DNA of 23,138 nt from a virus. The stretch covers positions 1 through 23,138 of IMG/VR virus record IMGVR_UViG_3300028608_000084. One strand, written 5' to 3'. The notes beneath the pieces were generated by a model. That model saw only the letters and a list, made by a program, of their open reading frames with translations. It was not told the DNA's origin and searched no databases. Position 1 is the first letter of the stretch; every line of letters begins with the position of its first letter. A program made the translations under genes and the position numbers. Below, piece by piece: positions 1 to 13,282 of this stretch.

Positions 1-64
1 CCTACGCTTCGTACCGGGGGGTTCCGTTCGGGGTGGCACGGAACCCCCCGGTACGAAGCGTAGG
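1..64. repeat. Perfect 27-bp inverted repeat with 10-base loop
   Basis: Positions 1-27 and 38-64 are exact reverse complements, separated by 10 bases (28-37). Each arm contains a run of six G or C and the word GTACGAAGCG or its complement. No T-tract follows, so it is not a textbook intrinsic terminator. The stem would be extremely stable as RNA or as a cruciform. It lies downstream of the leftward genes that end at 253, so a bidirectional terminator is one reading; a recombination, packaging or replication site is another. The window starts exactly at its first base, so the repeat may extend further left. Confidence 0.9.
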
Positions 65-80
65 CGACAGCCGAAGCTTC

Positions 81-130
81 GCCCCGTACCGTAACCTCCG
101 CTTCGCTACGGTTACGGGTGACAAGCGGAA
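81..130. repeat. Hairpin module, copy 1
   Basis: This module begins with GCCCCGTACCGTA (81-93) and ends with CGGGTGACAAGCGGAA (115-130). Both words recur at 188-200 and 228-243. Between them is a hairpin with stem CCGTAACC (89-96) and GGTTACGG (110-117) around a 13-base loop. The conserved flanks around a changed hairpin suggest a duplicated regulatory or structural element. Its function is not known from the sequence. Confidence 0.7.
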
Positions 131-154
131 ATCGGGGGCTCTAAGGCCCCCGAT
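131..154. terminator. Terminator-like GC hairpin
   Basis: The arms ATCGGGGGC (131-139) and GCCCCCGAT (146-154) are perfectly complementary around the 6-base loop TCTAAG. The stem is strong but no U-tract follows on either strand, so termination is plausible but not shown. It would lie at the 3' end of the leftward transcript from the genes at 253-1256. Confidence 0.45.
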
Positions 155-155
155 G

Positions 156-172
156 TGACAACCGGGTTGTCA
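156..172. promoter_or_regulatory. 17-bp operator-like palindrome
   Basis: TGACAACCGGGTTGTCA has two perfect 8-bp half-sites around a single central G. Size and symmetry match binding sites of dimeric helix-turn-helix repressors. I noticed no second full copy in the window. A near-repeat of one half-site follows: GGTTGTCAA (165-173) and GGTTGGTCAA (177-186). The repressor reading is inference. Confidence 0.45.
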
Positions 173-187
173 ATTCGGTTGGTCAAG

Positions 188-243
188 GCCCCGTACCGTA
201 CCGTGCCTCGGGGGGCTCCGCCCCCCTCGGGTGACAAGCGGAA
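188..243. repeat. Hairpin module, copy 2
   Basis: This copy repeats GCCCCGTACCGTA (188-200) and CGGGTGACAAGCGGAA (228-243) from the module at 81-130. Its internal hairpin is different: GGGGGGC (210-216) and GCCCCCC (220-226) around a 3-base loop. The module ends 9 bases before the stop codon of the leftward gene at 253. Confidence 0.7.
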
Positions 244-252
244 TTTACCGCG

Positions 253-474
253 TCAAGGCTTCCGTCCGTTGTGCAGGATCTGCAAGCAGATCGGCCGTAT
301 CGGCATGTCCAGGACATCGCGGGCGAAAGCCCGCTGGCTGCGCCAGTCTTCGCTGGCCCGCATCACATAGGTGTACCTGTCCAGGCCCCCGTGCTGGGGC
401 CGTAGCGGGATCATCTCCCGCGGGTAGCCGCGCTCGATCCAGTGCCGCTGCGCCCTCGTCCGCTTCGTCATCAT
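253..474 (-). CDS. Small hypothetical protein
   Basis: This leftward gene encodes 73 residues, starting with tandem methionine codons (ATG at 474 and 471). I do not recognise the family. The protein is basic and soluble-looking, rich in Arg, with aromatic residues and a core reading DRYTYVMRASEDWRSQRAF. There is no signal peptide or membrane segment. The frame stays open upstream to a GTG at 588, but that extension is Arg/Gly-rich and low in complexity, so I prefer the ATG pair. GGGA lies just upstream of the start. It is the last gene of a leftward group with two membrane-protein genes, and palindromes lie just beyond it. Role unknown. Confidence 0.55.
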   Translation of the reverse strand: MMTKRTRAQRHWIERGYPREMIPLRPQHGGLDRYTYVMRASEDWRSQRAFARDVLDMPIRPICLQILHNGRKP

Positions 475-617
475 TTTCCCAAAATTTTCCGTTCTTCCGC
501 CCCGGTGGCTCCCACGCTCGCGCCGGTCCTTCCCCCTCCTTCCGGCCGCTGCGCTTGCAGCTGGTTCTGACGCCCTGGGGCGGAACACCTTACCCGCCGG
601 ATACCGGCGCGGCCGTG

Positions 618-923
618 CTAACCCCTTGTGGACCCCCGGCCCGGCGGGCCGGCGTCGATGACCGCATCAGCGAAGAGGCCGTACCACGCGTTCTTCTCCT
701 GGTTGACGTCCCGCCGGTGCATGGTCGTCCACCTGCGCAGGTACAGGGGTTCAGGGGCGGGCTCGTCGGCGGCCACACGATTGCAGTAGCCCCTGCAAAT
801 AGCCACCAGCAGCCAAACGACGGCTACGGTCGCGGCAAGAACCATGAAAAAGGTTGCCATCATCACGACCACCATGAAGACCGCGATGAAAGCCGCCATG
901 CCCGATACCAGCAATTTCTCCAT
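618..923 (-). CDS. Small membrane protein, hypothetical
   Basis: This leftward gene encodes 101 residues from ATG 923; a TTG two codons upstream is an alternative. Residues about 4-44 are almost wholly hydrophobic (runs such as FMVVVMMATFFMVLAA), enough for one long or two closely packed membrane helices. A hydrophilic tail rich in Arg, Asp and Pro follows. The predicted place is the cytoplasmic membrane. No family is recognised. It lies 27 bases downstream of another membrane-protein gene (951-1256), so the two are probably co-transcribed. Small phage membrane proteins often act in superinfection exclusion or lysis control, but nothing here shows which, if either. No strong SD is visible. 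Confidence 0.55.
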   Translation of the reverse strand: MEKLLVSGMAAFIAVFMVVVMMATFFMVLAATVAVVWLLVAICRGYCNRVAADEPAPEPLYLRRWTTMHRRDVNQEKNAWYGLFADAVIDAGPPGRGSTRG

Positions 924-950
924 GGCCAAGATTAACCGGCCCGGTTCCGC

Positions 951-1256
951 TTAGGGAAGGGCCCTATGGCGGGTCTTGCCCCGCCGTGAACGGCGGTAGC
1001 CGATCCCGAGGATCGAGAGGCGCAGCATGTAGGCGTCCAGGACCAGGATCGCGGAGTTCATCCACAAGAAGAACGACCCGTAGTCCCGGTCCCAGAGGTA
1101 CATCCCGACGGACCAGACCGCCAGCAGCAGGGCCAGCGCCCACATGAACGTCATGTTCCTGCTGGATTTGTCGGTGCGCGGGTAGCGCGTCACGAGCATC
1201 ATCCCCCGGATGGTGCCGGCCAGAGCGGCCCAAAACCGCTGTATCCCCTTTTTCAT
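951..1256 (-). CDS. Two-helix membrane protein, hypothetical
   Basis: This leftward gene encodes 101 residues. It has a basic N-terminus (MKKGIQRFWAALAG), two likely membrane helices near residues 37-57 and 62-84, and a very basic C-tail (RRSRRGKTRH). Positive charges at both ends suggest that both termini face the cytoplasm. ATG 1256 is preferred over GTG 1262 because TACGAT sits 6 bases upstream of it, the geometry of a leaderless promoter, and there is no SD. It is divergent from the methyltransferase, with only 32 bases between start codons. It leads the leftward group. The family is not recognised. Confidence 0.6.
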   Translation of the reverse strand: MKKGIQRFWAALAGTIRGMMLVTRYPRTDKSSRNMTFMWALALLLAVWSVGMYLWDRDYGSFFLWMNSAILVLDAYMLRLSILGIGYRRSRRGKTRHRALP

Positions 1257-1262
1257 TAGCAC

Positions 1263-1268
1263 ATCGTA
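1263..1268 (-). promoter_or_regulatory. Candidate -10 box, leaderless start
   Basis: Read leftward, TACGAT is followed by 6 bases (GTGCTA) and then ATG at 1256. A -10 box at -12 to -7 puts transcription start on the A of ATG, as in actinobacterial leaderless mRNAs. No good -35 is visible. The same geometry occurs at 2951-2965. Confidence 0.35.
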
Positions 1269-1288
1269 GCCAACTGGAAAGGCCCCCC

Positions 1289-2239
1289 TTGACCACGGTG
1301 CGCTACATGTCGCTGTTCTCCGGCGTCGGGGGCTTCGAGCTGGGCCTGGAGGGCGCCGGCGAAAAGCTCGGCATCGACTTCCGGTGCGTGGGCTACTCCG
1401 AGATCGACAAGTGGGCCATCAAGACCTATGACAGACACTTCAGCCACCGAGCCTTCGGGGACGTCACGGCGATCGAACCGGCCACGCTGCCGGATTTCGA
1501 CCTGCTCGTCGCAGGGTTCCCCTGCCAGCCCTTTTCTACAGCGGGAGACCGCCTTGGATTTGATGATGAACGGGGGTCCCTGTTCTTCGACGTCGCCAGG
1601 ATTCTGCAGCACGCACGACCCCGACATTTTCTACTCGAAAACGTCGCGGGCCTACTGGGGCACGGATCTGGAGAAACTTTCAAGGCAATCATTAGGGTTC
1701 TCACCCGAATGGGGTATTGCTGTGAATGGCAGGTTCTTGACAGCCAGGACCACGGCGTTCCGCAGTCCCGGGAGCGGATCTTCATTGTCGGACATCTGGG
1801 AGGGATCCCCGGACGACTGGTCTTTCCCCTGGGAAACAACGTTGGCCGGATCGTGGACGGGGACCCGACGAGGAGTCGGTACGGTGACCGAGTTTTTAGC
1901 GGCACCGTCGAAGACTCCCCCGCCGGAGAGCTGATGGGCCTGGTCCGGTCCAAGGCCCCGGGCGTGACCGCCTGGGCCACCCGCACGATCGCCACCACCA
2001 TTGACGCCAACTACGGCTCCGGTCCCGGCTACGGCGGGAACCGCACACATGTCGGCCGCGTGGACAACGGCGTCCTCCGGCTGCGCAAGCTCACTCCCGT
2101 GGAGGCCGAGCGGTGCATGGCGTTCCCGGACAACTGGACCGCCGGCCACTCCAACACCCAGAGGTACCGGCAGATGGGGAACGCCGTAGTCCCCAACGTG
2201 GTGGAGGCCATCGCCATGGAGCTGTACCAAGCACGCTAA
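1289..2239 (+). CDS. DNA (cytosine-5) methyltransferase
   Basis: This 316-residue enzyme transfers a methyl group from S-adenosylmethionine to carbon 5 of cytosine in a specific DNA site. All key family motifs are visible: cofactor loop SLFSGVGG (8-15), catalytic FPCQPFS with Cys79, ENV (117-119), the QSRERIF block (159-165), and the C-terminal YRQMGNAVVP block. The target-recognition region lies between about 175 and 260. Length is normal for a complete single-domain M.HhaI-type enzyme. TTG at 1289 is preferred because GGAAAGG (1276-1282) lies 6 bases upstream; ATG 1307 would cut into motif I. No restriction enzyme gene is next to it, so it is an orphan, probably protecting phage DNA from host restriction. 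Its target site cannot be read from the sequence. Confidence 0.95.
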   Translation: MTTVRYMSLFSGVGGFELGLEGAGEKLGIDFRCVGYSEIDKWAIKTYDRHFSHRAFGDVTAIEPATLPDFDLLVAGFPCQPFSTAGDRLGFDDERGSLFFDVARILQHARPRHFLLENVAGLLGHGSGETFKAIIRVLTRMGYCCEWQVLDSQDHGVPQSRERIFIVGHLGGIPGRLVFPLGNNVGRIVDGDPTRSRYGDRVFSGTVEDSPAGELMGLVRSKAPGVTAWATRTIATTIDANYGSGPGYGGNRTHVGRVDNGVLRLRKLTPVEAERCMAFPDNWTAGHSNTQRYRQMGNAVVPNVVEAIAMELYQAR

Positions 2240-2435
2240 GTCAACCTGCACCGGGGTATCGCTACCGAAGTGGGGTTTGAAAAGAGGGGAAGTTATAGCC
2301 CCCCTCGCCAAGATAGGAAAACTGACACCTTTGTCGAGAGGAGAAACCTATCTCCCGTGCAGGGTTACGCACGCCCGCCGGGGCGGGGAGGCCAGGGCCT
2401 CCCCGCTCGGGCTCCAACTTCCTGGAGGGGAACCA
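2240..2435 (+). other. Intergenic leader with hairpins
   Basis: These 196 bases lie between the methyltransferase and the small gene at 2436. Two structures are clear. AGATAGG (2312-2318) pairs with CCTATCT (2347-2353) around a 28-base loop holding the SD-like GAGAGGAG. A 10-bp perfect stem GCGGGGAGGC (2383-2392) with GCCTCCCCGC (2397-2406) has a 4-base loop and no T-tract. The frame of the next gene stays open back to a TTG at 2277, but the SD at 2423-2429 favours the start at 2436. This may be a structured 5' leader. Confidence 0.4.
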
Positions 2436-2663
2436 ATGAGGCTTTACAACGCGATCTGCACCTGGCTGGAAGCCACGGCTTTCGAGAAGCTGGCATCCGC
2501 CGGCGCCTCCGAAGAGCCCCGCCCGGAAGGCAACAACTTTTCCCACGTCGAGCACGCCCACAGCTTCAGCACCGAGCCGGAGCTGCACAACGGCTGGCGG
2601 CCCTCACACTTTGGCTGGGACGACACGGCCCACATCAGTCTTCGCTGGCACCCGGAGGGGTGA
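2436..2663 (+). CDS. Small hypothetical protein
   Basis: This gene encodes 75 residues from ATG 2436, with a strong SD GGAGGGG (2423-2429) 6 bases upstream. The protein is acidic and His-rich (HVEHAHSF near residue 37) and rich in Trp, with no membrane segment or signal peptide. I do not recognise the family. It stands alone between a structured leader and a 299-base gene-free region, so it may form its own short transcription unit or be the tail of the methyltransferase transcript. The clear SD is the main support that it is real. Confidence 0.6.
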   Translation: MRLYNAICTWLEATAFEKLASAGASEEPRPEGNNFSHVEHAHSFSTEPELHNGWRPSHFGWDDTAHISLRWHPEG

Positions 2664-2950
2664 TAGCGTAAGCGGGTTGCTGCGGGCCGCAAACCCAAAG
2701 CATCAGAGGGTGACAGAGATAGGGCGAGTGGCGTCTGGAGTGGACGTACATAGCCTGAATGTGCACATGTGACGGGTAATCGACGGACATAGGTCCCAAT
2801 GGCAAATGCTGAGGGCGGTCGCAGTAGACCTGGTTAGCGCCAGGAAAAACCCGACGGGCCCAGCCGGCCCCCGTGTGGCCCGGCATTAACTCATTGGATG
2901 AAGCTCCAATGCCGGCGGACGGTTCATCGCCTCCCCCTCACCCCCACACT
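2664..2950. other. Gene-free region upstream of packaging genes
   Basis: This stretch, running on to the start at 2963, has no convincing gene on either strand. Base composition looks less GC-rich than its surroundings. It contains an imperfect hairpin around GGGTTGC (2674-2680) and GCAAACCC; a direct repeat GACGTACATAG (2743-2753) and GACGGACATAG (2782-2792), 39 bases apart; and the palindrome CACATGTG (2764-2771). Two competing inverted repeats lie at 2880-2915. I could not fold a tRNA on either strand. Its place ahead of the HNH and terminase genes makes a cos site or terminase-binding site possible, but this is inference. Confidence 0.45.
2880..2915. repeat. Two mutually exclusive inverted repeats
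   Basis: CCGGCATT (2880-2887) can pair with AATGCCGG (2908-2915). CATTGGA (2892-2898) can pair with TCCAATG (2905-2911). Both stems need bases 2908-2911, so only one can form at a time. This could be an operator pair or a conformational switch. The candidate -10 box of the next gene lies 36 bases downstream. Confidence 0.5.
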
Positions 2951-2956
2951 TATGAT
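2951..2956 (+). promoter_or_regulatory. Candidate -10 box, leaderless start
   Basis: TATGAT matches the sigma-70 -10 consensus at 5 of 6 positions. It ends 6 bases before ATG 2963, so transcription would start at or next to the start codon, as in actinobacterial leaderless genes. There is no SD before this ATG, which fits. A -35 box is not evident. Confidence 0.5.
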
Positions 2957-2962
2957 GGGCCC

Positions 2963-3190
2963 ATGCTCAAGACTCCCTGGCACGACGCCAAGACGTCGAC
3001 CGGCCTGCCCCGCATGGCCTTCACCCTCGAAGAGGTGGCCGAGATGCTGGCCGAGCCGGTTCAATCAATCAAACGCCACTGCCAGACGCAGGCCCTCCGG
3101 GGCGCGTACAAGACCGGCGGCAAGACCAGCCCGTGGCGGATCCCGCCGAAGGCCATTGACTACTACCAGGCCACGCGGCCGAACCAGTAG
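2963..3190 (+). CDS. Helix-turn-helix DNA-binding protein
   Basis: This gene encodes 75 residues. FTLEEVAEMLAEPVQSIKRH (20-39) followed by an aromatic and basic wing (GAYKTGGKTSPWRIPP) matches the excisionase/MerR-like helix-turn-helix fold often annotated as HTH_17. It should bind DNA as a small regulator or as an excisionase-type accessory factor; no integrase is visible to support the latter. ATG 2963 is chosen because it falls just after TATGAT with leaderless spacing. The frame stays open upstream to GTG 2873, but that part is Pro-rich and unconvincing. An intrinsic terminator follows 19 bases after the stop codon, so this is a one-gene transcription unit and may control the genes beside it. 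Confidence 0.8.
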   Translation: MLKTPWHDAKTSTGLPRMAFTLEEVAEMLAEPVQSIKRHCQTQALRGAYKTGGKTSPWRIPPKAIDYYQATRPNQ

Positions 3191-3209
3191 CCAACCGCGT
3201 CCAAGCCCA

Positions 3210-3234
3210 AGCCGTCCCACCGGGCGGCTTTTTT
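3210..3234 (+). terminator. Intrinsic terminator after the HTH gene
   Basis: AGCCGTCC (3210-3217) pairs with GGGCGGCT (3222-3229), with one G-T wobble, around a CACC loop. A TTTTTT run follows at 3229-3234. This is a complete Rho-independent terminator. Confidence 0.85.
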
Positions 3235-3271
3235 CGTGCCCAGATTCACCCACTTTCACCCGAAGGAACCC

Positions 3272-3505
3272 TTGAAAATCACCGTCTGGACCAAGTCCAA
3301 CTGCAGCCAGTGCACGATGACCAAGAGCCAGCTGCGGCGCAAGGGCCTGGAGTACGACGAGGCGGACCTGGAGACCAACCCGGAGCAGCTGCAGAAGTTC
3401 AAGGACGCCGGCCTCCTGCAGGCCCCCATCGTGGTCCTGGGCAATGACGGCCGCAGCTGGGCCGGCTTCCGGCCGGATCTCATTGACGAGCTGGCGGCGG
3501 AATGA
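3272..3505 (+). CDS. nrdH: NrdH-like glutaredoxin
   Basis: This 77-residue thioredoxin-fold protein has the redox motif CSQC (Cys11, Cys14), the cis-proline segment QAPIVV (50-55) and the NrdH hallmark WAGFRPD (63-69). NrdH proteins supply electrons to class Ib ribonucleotide reductase and are reduced by thioredoxin reductase. In a phage this would support deoxynucleotide supply, with the host reductase as probable partner, since no nrdEF is visible. TTG 3272 is chosen because GAAGGA (3262-3267) precedes it and the fold begins at once with KITVWTK; GTG 3236 would add an unlikely tail. It is the first gene after the terminator at 3210-3234 and overlaps the HNH gene. Confidence 0.88.
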   Translation: MKITVWTKSNCSQCTMTKSQLRRKGLEYDEADLETNPEQLQKFKDAGLLQAPIVVLGNDGRSWAGFRPDLIDELAAE

Positions 3506-3851
3506 CCGCAGCCGGCCCGCCTGGGAAGGATCCACCCGGAAGAGCCGGCTGCCCGCCGACTGGGAACGCCTGCGAATCGTCGTGCTGCGGCGGTGCGGGA
3601 TGCGGTGCGAATGGGTCGAGGACGGATTCCGCTGCCACAACGCCGCCACCGATGTCGATCACATTATTCCCGGAGACGATAGTTCTCTCTCGAATCTGCA
3701 GGGACTCTGCAACCCCCACCACTTAACCAAGACCGGCCGCGAGAATGCCGCAGCCAGGGCCGAGATCAAGAAACTCGGCCGGCTCCCCGAGGAGCCCCAG
3801 CCTGGGCTCATCGCCGGCCCCCCGCAGCCCACCGAACGTAAAGGCTTCTGA
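3483..3851 (+). CDS. HNH endonuclease
   Basis: This 122-residue protein has an HNH nuclease core: DVDHIIPGDD with His60, then SLSNLQGLC with Asn71 and Cys76, then NPHHLTK with His79 and His80. Cys42 and Cys51 upstream complete probable zinc ligands. HNH proteins of this kind, coded beside terminase genes, are known to act with the terminase in cutting phage DNA at cos sites. That role is favoured here because it directly precedes the terminase genes and overlaps the small subunit start (TGATG). A free-standing homing nuclease is the alternative. The start is uncertain: TTG 3483 overlaps nrdH by 23 bases and begins where family similarity (WRRNDRSRPAW) begins; ATG 3444 is the other choice. Confidence 0.85.
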   Translation: MTSWRRNDRSRPAWEGSTRKSRLPADWERLRIVVLRRCGMRCEWVEDGFRCHNAATDVDHIIPGDDSSLSNLQGLCNPHHLTKTGRENAAARAEIKKLGRLPEEPQPGLIAGPPQPTERKGF

Positions 3852-4279
3852 TGCCCGGACCAGTCCCCAAGCGGAGCGAAGAGCGCACCCGGAGGAACAA
3901 ACCCGAGAACGAAGGCGGCGTATCCCTGTCCAAGGGCGAACGCGTCCCGTACCGGGTCCCCCCGGTCGACAGCGCCTGGCACCCGCGAGCCAAGCAGTGG
4001 TACCGCTCGCTTTCCCGTTCCGGGATGCGCGAGTACTACGAGCTTTCCGACTACGAAATGGCCCGCCTCCTCTGTGACGCGTTGACCGAATACTACAAAC
4101 GCCCGACCGCGATGATGCTCGCCACCATCCTGCAGGGCATGACCTCCCTCGGAGTGACCGAGGGTGAGCGCCGCCGGATGCGGATCGAGCTTGAGAACCC
4201 CAAGGAACTCGAAACGTCGGCATCCGTCACCGCGATTGACACATACCGAGCGCAGCTGCTGGGGGTCCCGGAGACCTAA
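3851..4279 (+). CDS. Terminase small subunit
   Basis: This gene encodes 142 residues. The opening MPGPVPKRSEERTRRNK, the central helical region (AKQWYRSLSRSG ... YYELSDYEMARLLCDAL) and the position between HNH and large terminase genes match the actinophage terminase small subunit (P27/phiE125 gp8-like). It recognises phage DNA and delivers it to the large subunit and portal in the infected cell. The start ATG overlaps the HNH stop codon by one base, implying translational coupling. Length is typical. After it come 62 bases before the large subunit frame opens. Assignment rests on sequence style and gene order. Confidence 0.8.
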   Translation: MPGPVPKRSEERTRRNKPENEGGVSLSKGERVPYRVPPVDSAWHPRAKQWYRSLSRSGMREYYELSDYEMARLLCDALTEYYKRPTAMMLATILQGMTSLGVTEGERRRMRIELENPKELETSASVTAIDTYRAQLLGVPET

Positions 4280-4328
4280 GCCTGCCCGGTCGAAAGGGTG
4301 GGGCCAGGTGCCCAACGCTTCACTGAAA

Positions 4329-4342
4329 CCCCCGATCGGGGG
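4329..4342 (+). promoter_or_regulatory. Palindrome over the terminase start codon
   Basis: CCCCCGATCGGGGG is a perfect 14-base palindrome. Its last G is the first base of the GTG start at 4342. The only SD-like bases (the G run) form its right arm. Pairing within or between transcripts could hide the start. It also contains a GATC site. Confidence 0.5.
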
Positions 4343-4659
4343 TGATTAACATTCCTTCACTCACGCAAGAAGAGATCGAGGCGCTGGAGCCCACGGCGGA
4401 GAACGCCATGCTCCACTTCCCGCCGTCGTTCATCGGGCCGACATGGCAGAAGGACGAGAAGGGCCAGTGGCTGCTCCCCGAGCACACGCTTGGCTGGGAG
4501 ATCCTGGGCTGGGTTGCCGAATGGCTGACCTTTTCCGATGGCCGGCCTTTTATGTGTACCCCGGAGCAGGCAAGATTTGTGCTCTGGTTCTACGCCATTG
4601 ACCACCGCGGTAAGTTCTCCTACCGCAAGGCCGTTCTTCAGCGCATGAAGGGATGGTAG
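4342..4659 (+). CDS. Terminase large subunit, N-terminal fragment
   Basis: This frame encodes 105 residues ending in YRKAVLQRMKGW and a TAG stop. It is the start of a phage terminase large subunit, the packaging motor. The end, RMKGW, is the first half of the ATP-binding P-loop; the second half (GKDPLAAVL) lies in the next frame at 4665 onward. GTG 4342 is the only start after the preceding in-frame stop. The gene should normally continue as one protein of about 560 residues. Removing 8 bases between TGG (4654-4656) and GGC (4665-4667) restores KGWGKDPLAA. It overlaps the second part by 7 bases (ATGGTAG), which would allow reinitiation. See the findings for possible explanations. Confidence 0.8.
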   Translation: MINIPSLTQEEIEALEPTAENAMLHFPPSFIGPTWQKDEKGQWLLPEHTLGWEILGWVAEWLTFSDGRPFMCTPEQARFVLWFYAIDHRGKFSYRKAVLQRMKGW

Positions 4660-6041
4660 CCAGGGGCAAAGACCCCCTGGCGGCCGTGCTGTCGATCGTT
4701 GAACTGATCGGCCCCAGCCAGTTCTCGCACTGGGATGCCGACGGCAATCCCGTCGCCAAGCCCCACCCGGATGCCTACGTCCAGGTCACGGCGGTATCGG
4801 AGCAGCAGACCGAGAACACAAGGGATGTGTTCCCCGGGCTGATCCCCCCACGCACGCGTGCGGCCTTTTCCATGGATGTCCAGAAGGAGATCATCTACGC
4901 CAACGGCGGCAAGCAGAAGCTCCGCACAATGTCGGCTAACTTCCGTTCCGCCGAAGGTGGGCGTGTAACCTTCGCCATCGCTAACGAGACCCACCACTGG
5001 GTTCCGTCCCAACGCGGGCCTGCCTTCTACGAAGTCATCACGAACAACCTGACCAAGGTCCAGGGCCGGCTGCTGTGCATCACCAACGCCTACGAACCCG
5101 GCGAAGAATCTGTCGCACAGATTATCCGCGAGGAACAGGAACGCGTCTGGGCCGGCATCAGCCAGCCCTCGGGCTGGCTGTATGACTCCCTGGAAGCGCA
5201 CCCCGACTCGCCGCTGAGCAAAGAGTGGGCCCCGTTCATCGTGGCCACCATCCGCGGTGACGCCACCTGGCTCAATGTCGAAGACATCGTCTCGGAAATC
5301 CAGGACGGTTCCAAGGCCGTCGCCGGCAAGCGCCGGATGTGGTTTAACCAAATAGTTGCTTCTGGAGATTCCCTCCTGAAACCCGGGGACTGGGACGGCA
5401 TCCTGCAGCCCGGCTGCTACGGCGACAAGCGCGACCTCAAGCCCGGCGACCACATCGTCATGGGCTTCGACGGGTCGAAGACTGATGACGCAACCGCACT
5501 GGTTGCCATCCGCATCGAGGACAACCTGATTGTCCCGCTCGGCATCTGGCAGAACCCGGACCCCTCCGTGGAGTGGCACGTCCCGGTCGAGGAGGTCGAG
5601 TCCGAAGTCCACCTCGCCTTCAAAATGTTCCGGGTGCTCGCGTTCTTCAGTGACACCGCCTACTGGGAATCACAGGTGGACGGCTGGGCTGACACCTACC
5701 GCGAACAGCTGCTCATCAAGGCCAGCGCCCGCTCCACGGTCGGCTTCGACATGCGCGGCAACAAGGCCAAGATCTCCCAGACCACCGAGGCTTTCGTCGG
5801 CTCCATCATCGACAAGCGCCTCCGCCAGAACGGCGACCGCCTCATGCGCGTCCACGTCCTCAACACCAAGCGGAGAACTAATTCCTACGGGCTCTACTTT
5901 GGAAAAGAGAGTCGTGAATCACTTAGGAAAATCGACGGTTTCGCTGCCGGCTTCCTCGCCTACATGGCCCTGGTCGCCCTCGCCGAGTCCGGGAAGAAGA
6001 TCCCCAAGGAATACTCCCGCCGGCTCTACCAATTCAACTAG
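4653..6041 (+). CDS. Terminase large subunit, ATPase remainder and nuclease
   Basis: This frame encodes 462 residues from ATG 4653 and carries most of the packaging motor. Visible parts are the second half of the P-loop (GKDPLAA, 5-11), a Walker B-like strand with catalytic Glu (VTFAIANETHHW, Glu112), a coupling motif (LLCITNAYEPGE) and an RNase H-like nuclease with acidic residues in GFDGSKTDD (Asp273) and FFSDTAYW (Asp334), plus a C-terminal KIDGFAAGF. The motor translocates DNA into the prohead and the nuclease makes the genome ends. As coded, residues 1-4 (MVAR) replace the normal KGW, so this chain alone lacks a complete P-loop. GAAGGG directly abuts the ATG, too close for a good SD, so coupling to the upstream stop is the likeliest initiation. 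Confidence 0.88.
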   Translation: MVARGKDPLAAVLSIVELIGPSQFSHWDADGNPVAKPHPDAYVQVTAVSEQQTENTRDVFPGLIPPRTRAAFSMDVQKEIIYANGGKQKLRTMSANFRSAEGGRVTFAIANETHHWVPSQRGPAFYEVITNNLTKVQGRLLCITNAYEPGEESVAQIIREEQERVWAGISQPSGWLYDSLEAHPDSPLSKEWAPFIVATIRGDATWLNVEDIVSEIQDGSKAVAGKRRMWFNQIVASGDSLLKPGDWDGILQPGCYGDKRDLKPGDHIVMGFDGSKTDDATALVAIRIEDNLIVPLGIWQNPDPSVEWHVPVEEVESEVHLAFKMFRVLAFFSDTAYWESQVDGWADTYREQLLIKASARSTVGFDMRGNKAKISQTTEAFVGSIIDKRLRQNGDRLMRVHVLNTKRRTNSYGLYFGKESRESLRKIDGFAAGFLAYMALVALAESGKKIPKEYSRRLYQFN

Positions 6042-6049
6042 GAGAACCC

Positions 6050-7606
6050 TTGCCCACCTTTGACGAATTTGCCAAGGGGCAGCGGGACCAGGTCTATGCC
6101 AACCCCGATGTCAAGGCCGGGAACTTCGATCTGAAGCTCGTCGAGGACATGTTCCTCACCCTCCAGCATGACCGGGCCGAGTACGACCTGTGCCATGACT
6201 ACTTCGAGGGCAAGCACCTGCTCCCCTACGCCCCCCGCAACGCCACCGAACAGATCCGCGACCTGCAGAAGCGGTCCATCGCCAACTGGATCCCCCTGCT
6301 GGTGAACTTGCCCAGCCAGATGTCCTTCGTGGACGACTACCGCCGGCGCACCGCCGGCAAGCTGGACCGCAGGGACACCACCACCGCGGAGAACTCCAAT
6401 ACGGAGTGGACCCAGTGGCAGAAAAATCGCATGGACGGGCGCCAAGGAACGGTGTACCGCTCGGTGCTGACCTACGGTCACGCCTTCGTCGCGGTGAACA
6501 ACCTGGACCCGAAGGACATCAAGTTCGACATCCTGTCCACCAGGAACACCGTGGCGTACTTCCGGGATCCGGTCAACGACATCCGCCCGTCCCACGTCCT
6601 GACGATCAAGAGCTACCCGCGCAACGAGAAGGTCCCCGGCCTGGCCATCCTTTGGGATGACGTCTACCGCTGGGAGATGACCTACTCGGTCGACGGCAAG
6701 TTCGTGGTCAAGGGCAAGCCCTTCGCGCACAAGCTGGAGAAGTGCCCGGTCGTCCGGTACACCTGCTTCGTCGACGACGAGGGCCGCACCCGCGGCGTGG
6801 TCAAGGCAGCCATCCCGCTGCAGGACCGCCTCAACCAGGCCACCTTCAGCACCAACGTGACCGCTGATTTCGGCGCATTCAAAATCCGCTTCGCCGCCGG
6901 CCTGATGCCCTCCTTCCGCAAGGACGAGGACGGCAACCCGGTCCTGGATGCCAACGGCGAGCCGATCCCGGAACCGATCGAGATCAGCCAGGCCTCACTC
7001 CTGCTGAGCGATGATCCGGCGACGAAATTTGGACAGCTGGAGGAGACTCCCCTGGACGGCTACATCCGCCAGGAAGAGCAGGCCGCCAGGAACTTCACGA
7101 CCATTTCGCAGTTCCCGCCGCTGGCCTCCATCTCCAACCTGGCCAACCTGTCCGCGGAAGCGTGGGCCGCCGCCGAAGCCCAGTTCATCCGTTGGATCGA
7201 GTCCTTCCACATCACCCTGGGCGAGTCCCACGAGGAACTGTTTCGGCTCGGCGCACTGGCCGCCGGCGACTCCGAGGGTGCACAGTCCTACGGCGGAGAA
7301 GTCCGCTGGCGGGACCAGACCACCAAGACGGTTGCCGTCATGATGGACGCCCTGGGCAAGGCCGCGCAGATGCTCGACGTCCCGCGCAAGGGCCTGTGGC
7401 CCATGATCCCCGGCGTCACCAACGGGATGCTGGACGACTGGGACCAGCTGCACGAGAAGCAGGTCGAGGAGCAGGAGGCCATGGACACCCGCATCGCCCA
7501 GGCCACCGCGGCCCGGGCGCAGAGAGTATCCGGGACTGACGGTATCAAGAAACCCACCTCCCCCAATGGCACCCAGCCCAAGCCGGTAGTGAATGGCAAG
7601 GGCTGA
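6050..7606 (+). CDS. Portal protein
   Basis: This 518-residue protein matches the SPP1 gp6-like portal family in size, position and style: an N-terminal helical part (YDLCHDYFEGKHLLPYAP), a central region around NNLDPKDIKFDIL and RYTCFVDDEGRTRG, and a helical C-terminal half. Twelve copies form the ring at one capsid vertex through which the terminase pumps DNA and to which the tail joins. The start is TTG 6050, with AGGAG (6040-6044) overlapping the terminase stop codon at good spacing; no better start exists nearby. Its 3' end overlaps the MuF-like gene by 14 bases, so expression is coupled. Confidence 0.92.
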   Translation: MPTFDEFAKGQRDQVYANPDVKAGNFDLKLVEDMFLTLQHDRAEYDLCHDYFEGKHLLPYAPRNATEQIRDLQKRSIANWIPLLVNLPSQMSFVDDYRRRTAGKLDRRDTTTAENSNTEWTQWQKNRMDGRQGTVYRSVLTYGHAFVAVNNLDPKDIKFDILSTRNTVAYFRDPVNDIRPSHVLTIKSYPRNEKVPGLAILWDDVYRWEMTYSVDGKFVVKGKPFAHKLEKCPVVRYTCFVDDEGRTRGVVKAAIPLQDRLNQATFSTNVTADFGAFKIRFAAGLMPSFRKDEDGNPVLDANGEPIPEPIEISQASLLLSDDPATKFGQLEETPLDGYIRQEEQAARNFTTISQFPPLASISNLANLSAEAWAAAEAQFIRWIESFHITLGESHEELFRLGALAAGDSEGAQSYGGEVRWRDQTTKTVAVMMDALGKAAQMLDVPRKGLWPMIPGVTNGMLDDWDQLHEKQVEEQEAMDTRIAQATAARAQRVSGTDGIKKPTSPNGTQPKPVVNGKG

Positions 7607-8705
7607 GGAGGTCCAGGCGATTGATCAGCTGCACCAGGCGGCCCAGGCACGCCTGGGTTTCGCTGCAGCCTTCGTCGCGCTGGCCGAATGGCAGGCCGTG
7701 TCCAAGCTCAACCCGAACGACACCGCCGCCTCATGGCTGACGAACTCCATCCTGGTGATCGTCGCCATCCGCAAGATGTCCCGACGGCTGGCAGTCGCGC
7801 ACTACCAGCTGGTCAGGGCCCTGGAGACCGGGCGCACGCTGGGCGTGCCGGAAGGATCTCCTGACAGCACCACCTCCACCACACTGGGCAGCCTCCGGAA
7901 TAACTTCCGCAGGGCTGCCATCGACATCGCAGCCCTCCCGTCCACGCGCACGCGCAGCGACGACCCCGACATCCGGTGGTTCGAGGAGAAGCTGGCCGCC
8001 ACCCCTCCGGACATCGTGCCGGATGCGGTCCACCTGGACGACGTCGAGGTCGACCCCCTGATCCAGAAACTCCTGGACCGGGAAGGCACCAACGACAGCG
8101 AGCCCATCAAGGTCGACCGGTACGAATGGCCGGACGACTGGGACGTCCAGGACGTCGACGAAACGTTCCGTGCCCTGCTCAGGAAGCAGATCAAGGACGC
8201 CGCCGACAAGGTCAAGGACCTGCGCTCCAGCCCGGACATCACGCCGGACGAAGCCCTCAGCGGCATCGAGGAAGTGCACTCGGTGCACGGATCCATCGGG
8301 TCCGGCACCGTCGACGCAGCCGGCATCAGCGCCGGCCGGGACGCCGTCAACGGCGCCATCAAGAACGACAGGCTCGTTCTGGCGGTGGCCCGCGGCACCG
8401 GGCCGGATCCCTGCTCATTCTGCGCGTTCCTCGCGGCGCGAGGCTTTGTCTTCGCCAGCGAGAACAGCGCCGGCTTCAGCGACACCGACGTGACCAGGGT
8501 CTTTCACAATCACTGCCACTGCTTTCCGATTTACAAATTCGTGAAGGATTCACAGCTCCCCCCGCTGAGCCAGTACTTCAAGAGCATGTGGCCCAGGGTC
8601 ACTGCAGGGTACTCCGGCAGGGACGCCCGCAACGCCTGGCGCCGCTGGATCTACGCCCAGCGGAAGGCGAACCCCGACAACCCCCACGGTTTGTCCAATA
8701 CCTAA
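7593..8705 (+). CDS. MuF-like minor head protein
   Basis: This 370-residue protein begins inside the end of the portal gene. The C-terminal half has a probable metal-binding cluster: CSFC (Cys274, Cys277) and HNHCHC (305-310), typical of the phage head morphogenesis proteins (Mu gpF/SPP1 gp7 type) that follow portal genes. These proteins sit inside the head, bind the portal and may be injected with DNA. Many actinophages fuse a capsid maturation protease to this domain, but I see no clear protease active site here. The N-terminal 120 residues are helical. ATG 7593 overlaps the portal frame by 14 bases. Confidence 0.82.
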   Translation: MARAEEVQAIDQLHQAAQARLGFAAAFVALAEWQAVSKLNPNDTAASWLTNSILVIVAIRKMSRRLAVAHYQLVRALETGRTLGVPEGSPDSTTSTTLGSLRNNFRRAAIDIAALPSTRTRSDDPDIRWFEEKLAATPPDIVPDAVHLDDVEVDPLIQKLLDREGTNDSEPIKVDRYEWPDDWDVQDVDETFRALLRKQIKDAADKVKDLRSSPDITPDEALSGIEEVHSVHGSIGSGTVDAAGISAGRDAVNGAIKNDRLVLAVARGTGPDPCSFCAFLAARGFVFASENSAGFSDTDVTRVFHNHCHCFPIYKFVKDSQLPPLSQYFKSMWPRVTAGYSGRDARNAWRRWIYAQRKANPDNPHGLSNT

Positions 8706-9270: not shown

Positions 9271-9295
9271 CATGCCCCCTGAAAGGGACTACACC

Positions 9296-10669
9296 ATGAC
9301 TTATGCACCACACCTGAAGGTGAAGCCCGAGGTCCTTATCCAGGCCGCGGTCTCCGCCCTCAAGGACCAGCTCGTCATCTCCAACACGGTGACCAAGCGC
9401 AACGACCTCGCCACCTTCTTCAAGGCCGAAGGCGACACGATCAGCCAGCGCGTCAAGGGCACCGTTCCGGTGCGTACCTACACGCCGCGCAACGATCGCT
9501 CGCAGCCCATCCTGACAGATACGTACTCCGAGTCAGTCGTGACCGTGACTATCTCTGCCGACCGGCCGTACTCAGCCATCAAGATGACCGACGAGCAGGC
9601 CGACTGGGATTTCACGGATGGCTGGGGCGACATCATCGACGCCCAGACTTCCTCCATCGCGTCCTATCTCGAACACGGTGTTCTCAACCAGATCCTGAAG
9701 GCTCCCTACGAGCGCGTGATCCTGGTCAAGGATGACTCCGCCGGCATCACCGCCGCGCAGGGCTCCAACCAAGATGTCTTTTACAACGCGGTCGTGGAAG
9801 CGAAGAAGGCCCTCCGCCTGATGCGTACCCCGAACGACACGCTGTACTGCATCTGCGGCGTCGACTTCGAGGAAAAGATCCTCAAGTCCAACCGGTTCCT
9901 CAAGGACGAGGGCACGGGCGATGCCGCCCTGACCACGGCCACCCTCGGCACCATCGCCGGCGTGAAGTTCGTGTCCACCACGCACATCCCCGCCGACGAA
10001 GCGTACATGTACGCCAGCTCCGGCTTCCTCGCCTTCACCGGCGTGCCGCGTATCCCCCGCTCCGTGCCGTTCGGCGCTTCCGCCTCCGCCGGCGGATGGG
10101 CCTTGCGTTTTTTGATGGACTATGATACCGCCTACTTAACTGATAGGTCGGTCTTCGATTGCTACGCCGGATACTCCTACGTCAAGGACCGCCTGACGGT
10201 ATTCGACGGCCGCTCCAACGAGCTGGTTTCCCCGGATGAGTACTTCGTCCGCGGCGTCAAGCTGGCCCTGAAGTCCAGCACTTCCGCCATCGAGAAGAAG
10301 CCGGGCGACGGCTCCACCACGACCCCGGGCGGCTCCGCCAGCTCCTTCCTGGCCAAGGCCTACAACCTGCAGACCATCACGGCTGCCGAGGTTCAGGGCG
10401 AGCCCTTCCCGCTGGGTGGCAACTACCCGGGCGCTAAGGCTACTGCCACGGCCGCCATCACCAAGTCCGGCTCCACCATCGGCTCCATCGCCGTTGTGGC
10501 CCAGGGCTTCGGCTACACCTCCACCCCGACCGTCACCATCTCCGGCGGCGCCGGCACCGGCGCTACCGCCGTGGCCTCCATCCGCAACGGCCAGGTTGTG
10601 TCCATCGCGGTCACCGCCGCGGGCACCGGCTACACCGGAACCCCGACCGTCACCATCGCCGCACCGTAG
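9296..10669 (+). CDS. Major capsid protein with C-terminal repeat domain
   Basis: This gene encodes 457 residues from ATG 9296, with SD GAAAGGGA just upstream. The first 370 or so residues are a HK97-fold shell protein by position and style (RVKGTVPVRTYTPRNDRSQ, an E-loop-like region; then a helical spine and YDTAYLTDRSVFDCYAGY). It forms the icosahedral head. Residues about 380-457 are an added beta-rich domain with two copies of a motif like VxxxGxGYTxTPTVTI separated by SGGAGTGA. A clearly related domain ends the major tail protein (12503-13282). Such C-terminal additions usually sit on the virion surface. Expression is probably high; a terminator-like hairpin lies just upstream. Confidence 0.92.
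   Translation: MTYAPHLKVKPEVLIQAAVSALKDQLVISNTVTKRNDLATFFKAEGDTISQRVKGTVPVRTYTPRNDRSQPILTDTYSESVVTVTISADRPYSAIKMTDEQADWDFTDGWGDIIDAQTSSIASYLEHGVLNQILKAPYERVILVKDDSAGITAAQGSNQDVFYNAVVEAKKALRLMRTPNDTLYCICGVDFEEKILKSNRFLKDEGTGDAALTTATLGTIAGVKFVSTTHIPADEAYMYASSGFLAFTGVPRIPRSVPFGASASAGGWALRFLMDYDTAYLTDRSVFDCYAGYSYVKDRLTVFDGRSNELVSPDEYFVRGVKLALKSSTSAIEKKPGDGSTTTPGGSASSFLAKAYNLQTITAAEVQGEPFPLGGNYPGAKATATAAITKSGSTIGSIAVVAQGFGYTSTPTVTISGGAGTGATAVASIRNGQVVSIAVTAAGTGYTGTPTVTIAAP
10433..10669 (+). repeat. Capsid C-terminal domain shared with tail protein
   Basis: This segment encodes residues 380-457 of the capsid protein. It shares the pattern [18 protein letters not shown], an SI-VT strand and the ending PTVTIAAP with residues 184-259 of the major tail protein (13052-13282). 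A 19-base stretch (10539-10557) is identical to 13149-13167. Two internal half-repeats end at about 10538 and 10666. Confidence 0.85.
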
Positions 10670-12502: not shown

Positions 12503-13282
12503 ATGGCACTGAACAACGATGCCGTACTGAAGGTTGGCGTAGGCCACTTCTACACGGCGCCGGTGGGGACCGCGCTCCCCACTGACCTCCGCAACCCGGG
12601 CGGCACCTGGACCCACATGGGCCACACGTCCGTCCAGGACATTCTGTCCGCCAGCTCCGAGGGTGGCGAAACCACGACCCTCCGGTCCCTGCAGAACAAG
12701 ACCCTTCGCACCACGACCGCGGCCCGCACTGAAGCCTTCATCATGAATCTGCTCCAGTTCGATGCTCCGAGCTTGAAGCTGTATTACGGGTCAAACGCCA
12801 CGGTTGACGGCTCCAATAACGTCACCGTCCCGGCCAGCCCGGTCCCGACCGAGGTCGCCTGGCTGGTCGTGTTCTACGACGGCCAGACCACCGCCGGCAT
12901 CTACGCCCCCAAGGTCTCGATCATCCGCTCCGACGACCTCTCCGTCTCGGACACCGAGAACCTGGTCCAGCTGCCCGTCAAGGTCACTCCGCTGCAGAAC
13001 GGCGCGAACGACTACGCCTTCCGCTGGCTGACCCCGAAGGTCATCCTCTCCACCGCCACGGCCACCGCCACCCGCACCGCCAACGCTGTCTCCAGCGTCA
13101 CGGTGGTCTCCGGCGGTTCCGGCTACACCACCGTCCCGGCGGTGACCTTCTCCGGCGGCGCCGGCACGGGTGCTGCCGCTACCGCGGTGGTCACCGGCGG
13201 TGTCGTGACCTCCATCAACGTCACCAGTGGTGGCAGCGGCTACACCACGGACCCGACCGTCACGATCGCAGCTCCGGTCTAG
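12503..13282 (+). CDS. Major tail (tube) protein with C-terminal repeat domain
   Basis: This gene encodes 259 residues from ATG 12503, with SD TAGGAG upstream. Residues 1-180 match siphovirus tail-tube proteins in size, place and style ([20 protein letters not shown], then [22 protein letters not shown]). Stacked hexamers form the tail tube. Residues about 184-259 are a separate Gly/Thr/Val-rich domain with two half-repeats ([22 protein letters not shown], then [18 protein letters not shown]), related to the end of the major capsid protein. Surface domains of this sort decorate tails and may bind cells or glycans. Hairpins lie on both sides of the gene, fitting separate control of a highly expressed product. 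Confidence 0.9.
13052..13282 (+). repeat. Tail protein C-terminal domain shared with capsid
   Basis: This segment encodes residues 184-259 of the major tail protein. It corresponds to the capsid segment 10433-10669, with common motifs GYTxxPx[10 protein letters not shown] and PTVTIAAP, and a 19-base identical stretch at 13149-13167. It starts with an alternating Thr-Ala run, as does the capsid copy. Confidence 0.85.

Follow-up and report, generated by a model that had tools for sequence, protein, structure and literature searches.

A perfect 27-bp palindrome at the edge of a phage contig, probably a lengthened hairpin, and a putative structured RNA beside it

In the accessible text of two reports, noncoding RNAs are abundant among phages of Actinobacteria, and their roles are described as not clear (PMC5712189, PMC10986025). 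The same text presents the cluster A phage RNAs (L5, D29, StarStuff, and Kampy; Rhodococcus phage WC1) as noncoding and highly expressed, with several located at the genome extremes, and the right-end RNA region of cluster A as toxic to M. smegmatis (PMC5712189, PMC10986025). By comparison, the RNA described here is predicted from sequence, with structure and covariation for this group only, and its model (R2) had no match in D29 positions 46000-49127, the part of that genome searched. A second point of reference is 6C RNA, a small RNA with C-rich stem-loops that is reported to belong to the C. glutamicum GlxR network (PMC4046766). The present RNA is like it in having a C-rich loop and, in all four relatives that read on to the left, an upstream TGTGA-N6-TCACA palindrome; it is unlike it in that one long hairpin and a second domain stand in place of the two C6 stem-loops, and the window has no Rfam match to 6C. 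We also liken it to the anti-Shine-Dalgarno sibling sRNAs SisA-D of Caulobacter, which are host encoded and come from another phylum. The openly accessible portions of the literature on phage and actinobacterial small RNAs, with subscription papers outside that scope, describe no such RNA.

The other described system that bears on this locus is an artifact. According to the available part of the source, fold-back reads of the PDSM type form when a natural inverted repeat self-pairs in single strands, giving perfect or near-perfect inverted repeats, and fold-back chimeras at inverted repeats arise during library preparation, in sonicated libraries (PMC10908179). Such chimeras are known from human DNA reads, whereas the object here is the end of a metagenome contig. 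High-GC regions, in turn, lose coverage, and contig breaks at a G+C of 80% or more appear as an anecdotal remark in the text available (PMC4053816).

The phage record and its terminal repeat

The window, i.e., the whole stretch of DNA analyzed, is an entire IMG/VR virus record of 23,138 bases in the class "linear." Since the window is the complete record, base 1 is a contig edge. The source is a phage of Actinobacteria: its terminase is 73 to 88% identical to those of 22 uncultivated contigs and ~48% identical to those of Streptomyces phages such as Unstoppable, Bovely, and Nanodon, and one relative (47%) sits within a Rothia nasimurium genome. Nanodon (Likavirus) and Attoomi are among the nearest sequenced phages (terminase, ~48% for Nanodon; portal, ~40%). 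Tail genes are also present in the window; the other features are collected in Table 1.

Table 1. Coordinates of features in the window
Feature	Position	Strand	Details
Perfect 27-bp inverted repeat	1-64		Arms 1-27 and 38-64; loop 28-37
Left arm, outer part	1-15		Probable fold-back copy of 50-64
Probable natural core hairpin	16-49		Arms GGGGGGTTCCGT / ACGGAACCCCCC; partly inferred
Right arm, outer part	50-64		Last 11 bases CGAAGCGTAGG, unchanged in L004
Array hairpin	89-117		CCGTAACC/GGTTACGG, then GGGTGACAAGCGGAA
Array hairpin	131-154		ATCGGGGGC/GCCCCCGAT
Array hairpin	210-226		GGGGGGC/GCCCCCC, then GGGTGACAAGCGGAA
Small leftward ORF, 73 aa	253-474	-	Between hairpins and RNA
Putative conserved structured RNA (model R2)	478-658	+	Seven contigs
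RNA domain 1	495-585	+	P1 495-505/575-585
RNA domain 1, invariant inner pairs	510-511/569-570, 512-514/562-564	+
RNA domain 1, P2	520-523/551-554, 524-528/544-548	+	2-nt bulge 549-550
RNA domain 1, apical loop	529-543	+	CUUCCCCCUCCUUCC
RNA domain 2	593-648	+	P3 593-600/641-648; P4 607-610/615-618
C-5 cytosine methylase	1289-2239
Candidate target, 75-aa gene	2424-2663	+	ATG 2436; ribosome-binding site GGAGGGG 2424-2430
Glutaredoxin-like gene	3236-3505
Small terminase	3851-4279
Large terminase	4653-6041 and upstream piece
Portal	6050-7606
Head protein	9272-10669

Two side observations concern the structural genes. The large terminase occupies two overlapping frames (4342-4659 and 4653-6041), the stop of the first overlapping the ATG of the second, and this arrangement represents a split gene, a frameshift, or errors. 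The upstream frame is closed (0 to 29 codons) in 9 of the 15 close relatives checked and open for 65 to 169 codons in L005, L006, L012, L017, L019, and L021, as well as in the distant L025 and L026. A GSGYT..PTVTI repeat ends both the head protein (10488-10669) and the protein encoded at 12503-13282 (13055-13276), as if head and tail proteins had one decoration domain in common.

The first-pass annotation reported a perfect 27-bp inverted repeat with a 10-base loop at the very left edge of the window, and this repeat is confirmed: it is truly present in the record and greatly exceeds what chance would give. The arms are 100% complementary. Dinucleotide shuffling of the window, repeated 100 times, gave no perfect arm longer than 13 bp (mean of the longest, 10.06; loop, 3 to 30). 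Across 1,427,155 bases of partly redundant loci, the window included, there are five other perfect inverted repeats with arms of at least 18 bp and a loop of up to 30, all of exactly 18 bp. A search of 111 true contig ends for inverted repeats of at least 8 bp starting within the first three bases (loop of up to 100) found none; these ends come from a table of 77 loci, a subset of all loci with the window excluded, and a few contigs are counted twice. It was also correct that a T-tract is lacking, at least on the visible right side, where the sequence continues CGACAGCC; the left side lies outside the record. The suggestion of a DNA or RNA structure likewise agrees with the surrounding zone, whose nucleic acid structure is strong: the RNA fold of positions 1-260, repeat included, has z scores of -7.55 on the plus strand and -9.05 on the minus strand. 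Two descriptions hold only in part: the repeat does start at base 1, but the edge is that of a linear record, and IMG/VR records so classed are often fragments; the arms do complement each other perfectly, but the repeat is not "conserved" in the sense of being kept in relatives.

Origin of the 27-bp stem

How did a stem of this length come to stand at base 1? The neighboring block is found in seven contigs: the window, L004, L048 (= L005), L012, L015 (= L063), L014 (= L056 and L060), and L013 (= L059). Four of the seven read through leftward (block at L004 1183, L048 2973, L015 7418, and L013 6556) and reach 1.2 to 7.4 kb beyond the RNA block on that side, while the window, L012 (RNA match from base 76), and L014 (from base 175) start within the hairpin zone. 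In the relatives, the hairpins run as a series into the RNA; they vary fast from one contig to another, and one of differing sequence occupies the position of the window's 131-154 hairpin. The longest perfect arms in the zone (loop, 3 to 30) are 11 bp in L012, 10 bp in L004, 9 bp in L048 and L015, and 8 bp in L013 and L014, and the longest in window positions 65-252 is 9 bp. A check of relatives had been proposed, with absence without consequence and assembly-end duplication named as the outcomes that would refute the reading, and the 27-bp repeat is absent from them; that the four read-through relatives reach only 8- to 10-bp perfect hairpins argues against selection on the whole repeat, which had been offered as one explanation.

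The comparison with L004, which blastn aligns to window positions 29-152, separates the two arms. At the matching place (919-939), L004 has a shorter hairpin with 9-bp arms starting GGGGCGGTT, followed by TTCGGCCGAAGCGTAGG. The unchanged last 11 bases of the right arm indicate that 50-64 is natural sequence, and the right-arm end (54-64) is, by this comparison, native and kept in L004. The left arm, in contrast, has no matching 9-mer in L004, and to the left of the RNA all four read-through relatives lack every 9-mer contained in 1-15, which again speaks against selection on the repeat as a whole. Stray 9-mers of the right arm in L048, and of the left arm in L015 (window 11-19) and L013 (window 14-22), are of chance size.

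We lean toward the reading that the hairpin is an ordinary short one at a broken assembly edge, lengthened by a sequencing or assembly artifact; duplication at the assembly end is the most economical account of the repeat, though it is not proven. The assembly would have broken at base 1, inside a GC-rich hairpin array, and no biological end would be involved. The natural feature would be a hairpin of ~12 bp (16-49) that opens the visible part of a noncoding array (1-252) upstream of the putative plus-strand RNA. We infer that the array and the RNA are transcribed jointly and that a fold-back step occurred in which the 3' end of a single strand would have annealed to its own hairpin and been extended, making 1-15 a copy of 50-64; by an alternative route, a few chimeric reads may have taken the assembler round the hairpin. 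Such a product would mirror 50-64 at 1-15, would be perfect by construction, and would always lie at a contig edge.

Several observations are consistent with this fold-back account. The repeat is an outlier that begins exactly at base 1, none of the 111 other ends carries a terminal repeat, its perfect 27-bp arms contrast with longest arms of 8 to 11 bp among six relatives and of 9 bp elsewhere in the window's zone, and one arm is missing at the place in L004 where the 11-mer of the other is found. That three of the seven contigs begin in the zone fits coverage or assembly being lost where hairpins are GC rich, although the number is small and the point post hoc. Against the fold-back account, there is no second fold-back end among the 111, from which it follows that fold-back is not frequent, and if a longer, genuine palindrome were cut off within its left arm by the contig edge, the contig would appear identical, with a repeat starting at its first base.

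The latter is the core of the main rival, which is possible but which we favor less: the 27-bp stem may be natural, a lineage-specific and very stable hairpin of the array, perhaps a transcript 5' end that protects against decay or a bidirectional transcription block between convergent genes. A plain assembly break within the left arm could account for the edge, since two further contigs also start in the array, and hairpins here change quickly among relatives. Similar words flank other array hairpins (CGTACC before and AAGCGG after); CGTACC also precedes two other hairpins in the window (direct repeat 81-93/188-200), so part of the left arm resembles native array sequence. On the other side, a natural stem would be ~2.5 times the length of the longest perfect hairpin that any of six relatives has in the zone and would happen to begin at base 1, and the end of its right arm has a counterpart in L004 whereas its left arm has none.

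A physical genome end had also been proposed; whether as a cos region or as a telomere with a covalently closed hairpin, read round its tip, it is very improbable. A closed hairpin would be expected to yield a terminal inverted repeat, and the syntenic Nanodon record starts 2.1 kb before the gene at the small-terminase position (3.85 kb in the window), a gene annotated in Nanodon as a minor tail protein. However, L004, L048, L015, and L013 read on leftward, and the remaining three contigs stop at different places, unlike a cos site or terminal repeat. A search of 11 records of unstated completeness for the telomere resolvase family PF16684 gave no match; the family rang in 2 of 14 controls and exceeded the cutoff in 1. 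Known resolvase sites have palindromic tips, unlike the 10-base loop here.

We give equally little credence to the idea that the leftward genes at 253-1262 simply end here in an ordinary intrinsic terminator, with nothing more to it: the hairpins do lie downstream of three leftward ORFs, and Actinobacteria reportedly have terminators without a U-tract, but the GC-rich stem is not followed by a T/U run at 64 (the left side being outside the record), a terminator scan lists none in 1-250, although that scan demands T's, and relatives show a hairpin series leading into the RNA rather than a single terminator.

Apart from the question of origin, the array looks, from its recurring words, assembled from repeated modules. 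Words like GGGTGACAAGCGG follow array hairpins at window positions 116-128 and 229-241, L004 1009, L048 2766 and 2904, and L059 6380, and GGTCMAGG recurs between array hairpins; the pattern used for the module tail had no match in L012, L063, or L060. The alignment of the upstream hairpins is too poor for pair counts, and covariation in the array was judged by eye. The 15-mer of the right arm also occurs in 11 viral contigs, which were set aside: none is among the terminase relatives, none has a blastn hit to the window (E of 1e-3), and none matches R2.

A putative structured RNA and its candidate target

Positions 478-658 look like a structured noncoding RNA of phages of Actinobacteria, as yet undescribed. 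Over window positions 475/494 to 648/652, blastn identity is 88% for L004, 84% for L048 and L012, and 78% for L015, which is high for noncoding DNA. The seven members were aligned with MAFFT from sequence alone, and with the structure taken from RNAalifold and by eye this alignment gives 37 pairs, with 95.3% of 254 cells paired. Changes on both sides occur in 11 of the 37 pairs (5 in P1, 4 in P2, 2 in P3, and none in P4), versus 1 to 4 for slid controls, and the covariation score is 0.286, versus at most 0.085 for slid partners; the inner pairs never vary and thus contribute no two-sided changes. Four of five measures were reached by none of 500 shuffles and the fifth by 48 of 500. The structure tested was derived from the same sequences, so that these figures are no independent test, and seven sequences are few. 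Single-sequence minimum free energy folds of domain 1 (93 to 99 bases) give the same long hairpin in all seven, with z scores of -3.1 to -5.3. Thirteen G-U pairs and no A-C pairs on the plus strand point to that strand as the RNA strand. The internal pairs CUCCCA...UGGUUCYGA are invariant, and the loop is 13 to 16 nt long and mostly pyrimidine, with CCUCCUU in six of the seven; the loop of L015 is CCCCCUUCC.

Between the hairpins and the RNA, the 73-aa ORF has no Pfam or PHROG match at an E value of 0.001, and L004 has no equivalent of it there. Separately, the genes at 253-474 (-) and 2873-3190 (+), which are 2.4 kb apart and on opposite strands in the window, resemble, judged by their translations, one-strand neighbors in L048 at 465-671 (-) and 241-468 (-). 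Small genes thus look like they have been shuffled around the RNA between the two contigs.

Searches for the RNA elsewhere covered several sets. Rfam gave no match at gathering scores over the whole window, 6C RNA included, and none of the seven subthreshold matches in 1-1300 (E of up to 5) overlaps 478-658; five fall on 1-73, one on 126-152, and one on 751-783. Blastn of 430-700 and L059:6560-6725 against 50,697 phage records found nothing, nor did blastn of 1-300 or megablast of 1-8000 against annotated phages. Among genomes of the family to which Rothia nasimurium belongs, 395 were searched with R2 and yielded nothing, although this search, being without a positive control, shows little; R2 found no member in 85 further loci either. 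Nor did a methylase scan (best 80 of 591), a small-gene scan, or pattern scans add a member. Among the 80 methylase loci, L068 and L069 are contigs of known members, and 59 of the other 78 were searched with R2, the 19 outside that search being L125-L130, L132-L136, L139-L141, and L143-L147. L065 and L066 match the loop pattern but have no R2 match, look coding by eye, and were taken as chance. Among the nearest sequenced phages, R2 had no match in the parts of Nanodon searched (1-4000 and 44000-50082) and three weak hits in the whole of Attoomi, the best with an E value of 0.036 over model positions 25-101, in domain 1 (0.0004 when only 901 bases are searched). That best hit (L155 40846-40918) lies in a noncoding stretch between the CDSs at 40542 and 41190, near the right end. 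On this evidence, a counterpart of the RNA within the parts searched is not convincing in either phage.

What might such an RNA bind? The GGAGGGG ribosome-binding site of the 75-aa gene is complementary to 7 nt of the loop. GGAGGGG precedes the start of this gene in the window, L004, L048, and L021, whereas the site is GAAGGGG in L015 and in L016/L149 (identical there), the latter a contig in which no RNA was found. The loop of L015 itself has changed to CCCCCUUCC, so that GGAGGGG with the usual loop and GAAGGGG with L015's own loop each give a perfect 7-nt pairing. We regard the potential of the loop to pair with this site, with one matched change in a relative, as a lead, not a demonstration. 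In L014 and L013, the 75-aa gene lacks complementarity to the loop, and other small rightward ORFs have it (L150:716 and 1357; L151:7498); in L012, the motif used did not pick up the gene copy, and a weak candidate at 7819 is all that the contig gives. A general effect on ribosome-binding sites was set aside: a 7-nt run precedes 1 of 19 typed starts in the window, versus 7 of 2,000 random 25-nt stretches, only 1 of 9 loop-complementary 7-mers on the plus strand of the window precedes a start, and most such 7-mers in these contigs stand away from starts. Ribosome-binding sites are purine rich anyway.

The four relatives that read on to the left have TGTGA-N6-TCACA 329 to 399 nt before the block, and three of these four palindromes are identical (TGTGACGAAGATCACA). 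We take this motif to have the form of a CRP/GlxR site. Counting these, the partly redundant loci (1.49 Mb) contain 21 copies in total; those of the relatives are at L063 2863 and 7019, L004 854, L048 2580, and L059 6194, the second palindrome of L015 standing 4.6 kb ahead of the block. The window starts past the position of the palindrome.

Taken at its fullest, the locus could be a new family of phage regulatory RNA. Transcription would proceed to the right from a promoter under a CRP/GlxR-type site, and the transcript would start with stabilizing hairpins (the 27-bp one among them, if natural) and end in the covarying hairpin, whose exposed CCCCCUCCUUCC loop would bind one or a few small phage genes at their ribosome-binding sites and couple their translation to the cAMP/carbon state of the host. 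We speculate along these lines while judging the full scheme unlikely.

For metagenomic phage contigs, a perfect palindrome at base 1 calls for caution against a telomere or packaging reading before relatives and reads have been checked. The part of this locus that deserves a second look is the putative RNA at 478-658, which compensatory changes across seven phage contigs support and which suggests a concrete pairing with a candidate target.
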